Of a stretch of DNA of 64,000 nucleotides, positions 48,488 through 48,814 are shown one piece after another. Below the pieces are notes generated by a model. It had not been told where the DNA came from, did not search any database, and was given only the letters and a program-made list of their open reading frames with translations. A program made the translations under genes and the position numbers. Where the stretch lies: NCBI RefSeq assembly GCF_023983475.1, contig NZ_CP092712.1, positions 744,001 through 808,000 on the forward strand, written 5' to 3'. This DNA comes from Aliivibrio fischeri ATCC 7744 = JCM 18803 = DSM 507. GTDB taxonomy: Bacteria; Pseudomonadota; Gammaproteobacteria; Enterobacterales; Vibrionaceae. Each line of letters opens with the position of its first letter. Position 1 is the stretch's first letter.

Positions 48488-48496
48488 TGGTATAGT
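48488..48496 (+). promoter_or_regulatory. Extended -10 promoter of the small-ORF unit
   Basis: TGGTATAGT fits TGnTATAAT at all but one base; TTGTAA at 48469-48474 with 16-base spacing is a possible -35. Predicted start near 48503. Confidence 0.6.
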
Positions 48497-48497
48497 T

Positions 48498-48603
48498 ATC
48501 TCATCTGCTGATAAGGCAGAAAAAAATGCTCATAGGATGAGTCCGATTTATCGCCTCCAAGGAACCGAGATCAATTTAAAATGTTAAAAACTATCAATTG
48601 ATA
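48498..48603 (+). ncRNA. Structured leader of unknown class
   Basis: Complementary segments: TCTGC/GCAGA (48504-48508 with 48516-48520), CTCATC/GATGAG (48500-48505 with 48536-48541), an alternative ATCTC/GAGAT pairing (48498-48502 with 48567-48571), and a palindrome TATCAATTGATA (48592-48603) just before the ribosome site of the small ORF. The pairings at 48500-48505 exclude each other in part, which suggests switching. I could not match it to any riboswitch I know (purine, FMN, TPP, glycine, lysine, c-di-GMP were considered). Confidence 0.4.
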
Positions 48604-48613
48604 AGGTGATGTT

Positions 48614-48700
48614 ATGTCTTTTTTAAGTTCTTCAAAATTCTGGAATCAACGCTCTGTATACACAAGTCAATTTGTGTACCCAATGTGCTTTGGTTACTAA
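48614..48700 (+). CDS. 28-residue small ORF with own ribosome binding site
   Basis: ATG preceded by AAGGTGAT at 48603-48610. The peptide starts MSFLSSSKFWNQRSVY and ends FVYPMCFGY; it is rich in Ser, Phe, Tyr and Val, with one Trp, and has no signal peptide or full membrane span. I do not recognise it. It is enclosed by an upstream promoter, a UUCG hairpin and a terminator. It may be a regulatory leader peptide, a ribosome-stalling peptide or a free small protein; the sequence alone cannot decide. Confidence 0.5.
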   Translation: MSFLSSSKFWNQRSVYTSQFVYPMCFGY

Positions 48701-48717
48701 TAAAACTTCGGTTTTAT
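48700..48717 (+). other. UUCG tetraloop hairpin directly after the small ORF
   Basis: ATAAAAC (48700-48706), TTCG loop, GTTTTAT (48711-48717), the stable cUUCGg type. It begins at the last base of the stop codon, so a ribosome terminating or stalling at the end of the ORF would cover it. Confidence 0.6.
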
Positions 48718-48778
48718 ACGTTAAAGTAATACCCCTATAATTGGAATTCTATTCTACCCTTATGGGCAGTTAATTCTC

Positions 48779-48814
48779 CGCCATTCAAAACTATTTTGGA
48801 TGGCGTTTTTTTTT
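48779..48814 (+). terminator. Terminator of the small-ORF unit
   Basis: Twelve-base stem 48779-48790 / 48794-48805 (CGCCATTCAAAA with TTTTGGATGGCG, one wobble), CTA loop, nine T residues. It stands 227 bases before the permease gene, which has its own promoter region. Confidence 0.9.

Follow-up and report, generated by a model that had tools for sequence, protein, structure and literature searches.

The DNA analyzed here is a 64,000-nt stretch of the Aliivibrio fischeri genome (hereafter, the window). Positions 48488–48814 hold a small transcription unit on the plus strand, flanked by pepD (NCBIfam model) and a xanthine/uracil permease gene (PF00860), and its features are collected in Table 1. 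The permease gene is adjoined by a gene for xanthine phosphoribosyltransferase (50362–50829, plus strand), to which the Tet(34) model matches below its cut-off.

Table 1 Features of the transcription unit (positions in the window)
Feature	Position	Strand	Sequence or remark
CRP-like site	48447–48462	+	TGTGAGGCTCGTCATG; upstream of the -35 element; 2/10 mismatches to TGTGA-N6-TCACA
Promoter	48469–48496	+	-35 TTGTAA (48469–48474), extended -10 TGGTATAGT (48488–48496); start expected near 48503
5'-end hairpin	48504–48520	+	UCUGCU-GAUAA-GGCAGA; predicted fold
Leader hairpin H1	48528–48542	+	GCUC-AUAGGAU-GAGU; GGA at 48535–48537
Leader site 2	48550–48569	+	AUCGCCUCCAAGGAACCGAG; anti-SD-like strand and second ANGGA (48559–48563)
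Shine-Dalgarno (SD)	48603–48610	+	AAGGUGAU; AGGUGAU (48604–48610) able to pair with AUCGCCU (48550–48556)
VcdP homologue (ORF)	48614–48700	+	MSFLSSSKFWNQRSVYTSQFVYPMCFGY; 28 aa; nt 112–198 counted from 48503
cUUCGg hairpin	48700–48717	+	first base shared with the end of the stop codon
CCCC, VcdR base-pairing seed	48732–48735	+	nt 230–233 from 48503; role as given in the available text of PMC8672173
Intrinsic terminator	48779–48814	+	12-pair stem (48779–48805), then nine T (48806–48814)

Promoter and transcript ends

A preliminary description of this interval had named an extended -10 element, an SD (AAGGTGA, 48603–48609), a 28-codon ORF, a UUCG hairpin opening at the stop codon, and a terminator with a 12-pair stem and nine T, and all five are present in the sequence. 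Relatives were compared using 179 loci, of which two were dropped as too short, leaving 130 distinct sequences with 92 distinct leader rows. The promoter combines a 16-nt spacer, 9/12 consensus matches, and the TG of an extended -10, a score that on its own is at chance level (5 such sites in 1.5 kb versus 5.6 expected). The promoter call is nevertheless supported because the stretch from -35 to -10 is conserved among relatives (83% mean column identity, 130 sequences). Terminator-like sites occur above chance (4 found versus 1.1 expected). At the predicted 5'-end, the 30-nt stretch matching the hairpin has a fold energy of -3 kcal/mol or lower in 102/130 sequences, with a mean of -4.06 kcal/mol versus -1.47 kcal/mol for shuffled sequences, and the hairpin sequence itself is poorly conserved (68% identity). 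When scored against the CRP consensus used (TGTGA-N6-TCACA), the best CRP-like site carries no more than two mismatches in 105/130 distinct sequences (about 3/130 expected by shuffling) and begins 85–89 nt upstream of GGATGAG in 100/130. CRP binding at vcdRP has been demonstrated in V. cholerae only, according to the available text (PMC8672173).

Orthology with VcdRP of Vibrio cholerae

VcdRP (Vcr082) of V. cholerae was described by Venkat et al. (2021, EMBO J; PMC8672173) as a 306-nt dual-function RNA, and the parts of that paper covered here report that it is repressed by CRP, bound by Hfq, and processed by RNase E, with a 29-codon ORF at nt 104–193. That study used Northern blots, protein tagging, target reporters, and GltA binding, and it places vcdRP next to vc2278/vc2279. 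From its promoter and terminator, the A. fischeri transcript is predicted to be 310–312 nt long. In V. metoecus (locus L095), pepD and a PF00860 permease gene flank vcdRP as well. We take vc2278/vc2279 to be the xanthine/uracil permease and pepD.

The likeness to V. cholerae itself was drawn from the features given in the available parts of PMC8672173, whereas V. mimicus, V. metoecus, and others served as relatives at the sequence level. The two units share gene neighbors, predicted size, the place and sequence type of the ORF, the CCCC, the terminator, and the CRP-like site; they differ in that the protein has 29 aa in V. cholerae but 28 in A. fischeri, which has the UUCG hairpin after the stop. 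In V. mimicus and V. metoecus, the ORF at the same place is exactly 29 aa long, and the A. fischeri ORF resembles these in place and C terminus. A DNA search matched the unit in 141/197 genomes of the family, with 96% identity across the unit in one genome (G024). V. harveyi, V. splendidus, and V. anguillarum, all included in the alignment of PMC8672173, carry it too, and leader, ORF, and CCCC occur together in 125/130 distinct family copies. Orthology with vcdRP is supported because the neighbors and the order and near-equal distances of ORF, CCCC, and terminator agree with those given in the available text of PMC8672173. Judged on this evidence, the unit is almost certainly the Aliivibrio copy of VcdRP. 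As an orthologue, it very probably keeps, by homology, the two-job core of a seed acting on sugar-PTS mRNAs and VcdP acting on citrate synthase.

The preliminary description had presented the unit as undescribed and its function as unknown. Neither holds for the family, since VcdRP of V. cholerae has already been studied and the roles of VcdRP and VcdP are known there, within the covered parts of PMC8672173; of the three options offered, that of a dual-function sRNA was right. VcdRP as such is known, and its occurrence in Aliivibrio lies outside the species named in the available text of PMC8672173. The alignment of that paper comprises seven Vibrio species and no Aliivibrio (legend to its Fig. 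1C), the word 'aliivibrio' is absent from its text, and 'fischeri' appears in its reference list only. In another species, V. vulnificus, a chromosome 1 locus described as nearly identical has been reported as VvdRP, its RNA measured by RT-qPCR (PMC9737408), and no leader analysis was found in the parts of that account available. SgrS/SgrT of enteric bacteria is likened to VcdRP by function: it too is a dual-function RNA directed against PTS mRNAs with the ORF upstream of the seed, and it differs in protein target and in transcriptional control (available text of PMC8672173). An Rfam search of 48400–48830 gave no family near its gathering score (best E 0.089), and no Rfam family covers the unit. 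The sole Rfam match in the window was V_AS9 (Vibrio RNA AS9; 15024–15127, minus strand, 57.9 bits).

Protein constraint on VcdP

The ORF has 80% mean column identity in the 130 sequences. Its codons are conserved as those of a protein: dN is well below dS both in Aliivibrio (10 sequences, 45 pairs; mean dN 0.069, dS 0.38) and in Vibrio (779 pairs, 40 of 54 sequences used; dN 0.102, dS 0.48). By these comparisons, purifying selection is acting on the ORF, which is constrained as a protein. Most relatives have a VcdP ending in FGY, and some add K, NK, SK, or RK after it. VcdP binds and activates citrate synthase (GltA) in V. cholerae (available text of PMC8672173), and the A. fischeri genome encodes a citrate synthase scoring above the TIGR01798 cut-off.

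The hairpin directly 3' of the short ORF and the FGY end shared by most relatives would also suit a stalling leader peptide, which was another of the options offered, or an attenuator of the downstream permease. This reading is very improbable. Transcription has a promoter and terminator proper to the unit, no gene follows within it, a strong terminator and 226 bases lie ahead of the permease start, and in one locus (L213) of family f2, elsewhere in the order, the flanking genes are instead IcmF and hisA. Moreover, the ORF is constrained as a protein that tolerates C-terminal extensions, and in V. cholerae it acts on GltA as a protein. As for the hairpin itself, the UUCG loop is present in 10 of 14 same-genus rows inspected, while the other four carry CUCG, CACG, or UUGG loops on that stem, and the Vibrio rows inspected beside them lacked the hairpin in this form. 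Family-wide, its identity is 56%, and the stop-codon hairpin and terminator together range from 56 to 59% mean column identity (130 sequences). Only one copy among the 130 distinct sequences (L175, genome G188) has a stop codon inside vcdP.

Seed and sugar-PTS targets

In V. cholerae, VcdR pairs with ptsG, treB, nagE, and ptsHI through four cytosines located distally within nt 223–232 (available text of PMC8672173). CCCC follows the ORF in 125/130 distinct sequences, with 88% mean column identity. Eleven PTS-type matches were found in the A. fischeri genome, among which nine start regions were scored; L236 was inspected only (no GGGG), and L237 lay outside the set. GGGG was present in 2/9 of the scored regions, and no treB gene was identified. 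The start region of nagE (TIGR01998; named, like ptsG, by an NCBIfam model above its cut-off) holds UUAUAGGGG, the exact complement of the seed stretch CCCCUAUAA, with a predicted pairing energy of -16.3 kcal/mol. The ptsH start region reached -13.0 kcal/mol and that of ptsG only -9.4 kcal/mol, and a second nagE-type gene without GGGG in its start region scored -6.2 kcal/mol. Among 57 control start regions (window ORFs of at least 100 codons), the best value was -14.4 kcal/mol and the next -12.9 kcal/mol. On these predicted energies, nagE and ptsH are the best seed-target candidates in A. fischeri. An sdhA-like start region, picked up by chance, scored -16.7 kcal/mol, so a strong pairing score is not by itself proof of a target; sdhA was set aside as a VcdR target, since its GGGG appears to fall within the last codons of the upstream reading frame. 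Right after the seed, UAUAAUUGGAAUU (48736–48748) is 74% conserved and contains a further GGA.

A conserved leader upstream of VcdP

Site 2 and the SD each have 97% mean column identity and H1 has 89% (130 sequences), so the core of the leader exceeds the ORF in conservation. RNAalifold on the 92 distinct rows kept all four H1 pairs in 92/92, with pair types GU/GC, CG/UA/UG, UA, and CG/UG, and sliding the partner strand lowered pairing from 99.8% to 55% or less. A wider set (A2) was composed of 37 of the 92 leader rows and 14 of 20 further loci (51 in all; 48 distinct rows, three families). In its 48 rows, every H1 cell is paired (100%), with two-sided changes at two pairs, and the whole leader structure has 14 cells with two-sided change versus 3.5 in shuffles. 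The number of pairs with two-sided change was not above shuffles (218/500 for the wider set, 399/500 for the 92 rows). Covariation in the leader is seen as compensatory changes at two pairs of H1 and does not extend to the pair-count measure. The site-2 hairpin (UCG/CGA) is itself uncertain, its first pair failing in 6/48 wider rows.

The H1 loop varies from 5 to 8 nt and contains GGA in 92/92 rows and in 51/51 of the wider set. The second site reads ANGGA in 91/92 rows, 24–27 nt downstream of the first GGA, and all four bases occur at its N position in the wider set. Among the 92 rows, loss of the second GGA is confined to L175, the copy with the internal vcdP stop, a single case. In A. fischeri, the predicted H1 fold closes two further pairs, so that the A of the loop GGA becomes part of the stem.

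The mutually exclusive pairings noted earlier were borne out in part. The pairing of AUCGCCU with the SD is available, whereas that of CTCATC (48500–48505) with GATGAG probably lies outside the RNA, because some of the bases involved precede the likely transcription start (about 48503). Allowing any register, a helix of at least seven pairs between the leader strand and the 16 nt immediately 5' of the start codon can form in 112/129 sequences, compared with about 19/129 when the SD is shuffled. These predicted helices are no more than suggestive of a real switch, because ribosome binding would in any case keep the SD conserved; in 17/129 sequences the helix has only 4–6 pairs, and it is short in neighboring families. 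Two upstream ORFs in the leader were considered and rejected: AUG AGU CCG, which is not frame-conserved and is followed by a stretch of variable length after CCG, and AUG CUC ... UGA.

Distribution and seedless relatives

A covariance model of the leader matched 163/197 family genomes, four of these weakly (E 0.001–0.004). Elsewhere in the order, strong matches were confined to families f2 (11 genomes) and f11 (2 genomes), and wider matches at E of about 0.001–0.008 were taken as chance. Family f2, which looks to us like Moritellaceae, has the leader and a VcdP-like ORF without the seed in 11/11 genomes (L244–L254). Its ORF is 27 aa long, ends in TYPRHLGY or a close variant, and has the terminator directly behind it; no CCCC lies between ORF and terminator in these 11 genomes, and one has CCCC 106 nt further on, past the terminator. 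A CRP-like TGTGA-N6-TCA was found upstream in five f2 loci inspected by eye. At one f11 locus (L221), pepD is still a neighbor.

Within the Vibrionaceae set of 130 sequences, four lack CCCC and one (L175) has a stop in vcdP. The seedless cases of the family are a MAG (L031), one locus each in genomes G022 and G145, and the first tandem copy in G169. Genomes G022 (L122, L183) and G145 (L137, L182) each have two vcdRP-like loci, with the seed in L183 and L182, respectively, and the other locus seedless; the leader model gave three matches in each genome, two of which were read. In G169 (L184, about 650–1400), the order is leader-VcdP-leader-VcdP-CCCCCC-terminator, with no CCCC between the first VcdP and the second leader. 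The presence of leader and VcdP without the seed, in f2 and in these family cases, implies that the leader is kept with VcdP and not with the seed. Seedless relatives do not appear in the covered parts of PMC8672173.

A result from V. cholerae fits this association. Two 3' forms of 156 and 87 nt, without any leader, still repress PTS reporters (available text of PMC8672173), so VcdR can act without the leader, which agrees with its retention alongside VcdP. Counting against a leader switch for VcdP, the protein was expressed from an artificial 5'UTR in the same work (PMC8672173, text available), and its production can thus do without the leader. The terms leader, riboswitch, secondary structure, CsrA, and GGA are absent from the text of PMC8672173.

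A putative CsrA switch in the leader

The leader probably controls VcdP translation. CsrA is the most likely route of such control, and from anatomy and conservation we give this route about an even chance. CsrA recognizes GGA in a hairpin loop within ANGGAN, one dimer can bridge two sites, and leaders exist in which it opens a masked SD (covered parts of PMC7652899). The vcdRP leader shows the anatomy of CsrA sites overlapping a strand that could mask the SD. It resembles the ymdA-type leaders, where two GGA sites, one of them in a hairpin, precede the start and the SD is masked by a leader strand; those leaders are activated by CsrA (PMC7652899, text available), whereas the CsrA sites of the vcdRP leader are putative. 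The two CsrB RNAs of the A. fischeri genome have like loops, AUCAGGAUGAU in both and GCUCAAGGAACAAGC in one, and a scan of both window strands gave 13 H1-like hairpins, of which leader H1 alone has a second ANGGA 20–30 nt downstream. A base-pairing sRNA that also binds CsrA is known in McaS of E. coli, which has GGA sites, as does vcdRP, and differs in having no ORF. Activation by freeing the SD, as the anatomy and conservation would allow, is a possible but doubtful direction for CsrA action here.

Another explanation, quite possible though we hold it short of even odds, is that the leader is some other cis element (a 5' stability element or a site for Hfq or RNase E), with its GGA serving structure or a protein other than CsrA. 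A 5' hairpin precedes the conserved leader, VcdRP is processed by RNase E and bound by Hfq in V. cholerae (see above), and our literature search yielded no CsrA data on VcdRP. CsrA was not found together with Vcr082 in the literature searched, which leaves most subscription papers outside; CsrA and VcdRP met only in PMC9960880, in whose available text CsrA stands in the reference list alone, and a wider search for CsrA binding to the vcdRP leader found none among the titles listed. However, GGA stays constant while the H1 loop varies in length, and the N of the second ANGGA takes all four bases, neither of which structure alone would predict.

The conserved CCUCC strand might instead be a second trans-acting seed for the SD regions of other mRNAs, being anti-SD-like and part of the segment with the highest conservation in the unit (97%). 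We regard this as unlikely: the leaderless 3' forms repress four known targets in V. cholerae, although further targets may exist, the leader is kept where the known seed is missing, and the adjoining ANGGA is equally conserved.

In outline, the unit would work as follows. CRP-cAMP would repress the vcdRP promoter (as in V. cholerae, and by homology here), so that the RNA would be made when sugar is plentiful. Through CCCC, its 3' part would base-pair near the starts of sugar-PTS mRNAs (best candidates nagE and ptsH) and lower sugar uptake, and its ORF would yield VcdP, which binds and activates citrate synthase in V. cholerae and by homology would do so here. In the off state, AUCGCCU of the leader would be paired with the SD. 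On the CsrA reading, a CsrA dimer on the H1 GGA and the second ANGGA would keep this strand away from the SD, so that VcdP would be made whenever free CsrA is available. We tentatively propose, at somewhat less than an even chance, that VcdRP may be built around a CsrA-gated small-protein cassette, consisting of a promoter with a CRP-like site, a two-GGA leader, and VcdP, to which the seed was joined in Vibrionaceae or from which it was lost elsewhere. Carbon control by CRP, CsrA, and Hfq would then be combined in one transcript.

Implications

VcdRP, a dual-function regulator already described, is present in Aliivibrio and in the majority of the Vibrionaceae genomes searched (141/197), which opens it to study in a harmless symbiont. 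The analysis also draws attention to the strongly conserved leader, which the founding paper (PMC8672173) does not name. If CsrA binds this leader, one RNA would join two main systems of carbon control, and the assembly of a dual-function RNA could be traced in the relatives that lack the seed.
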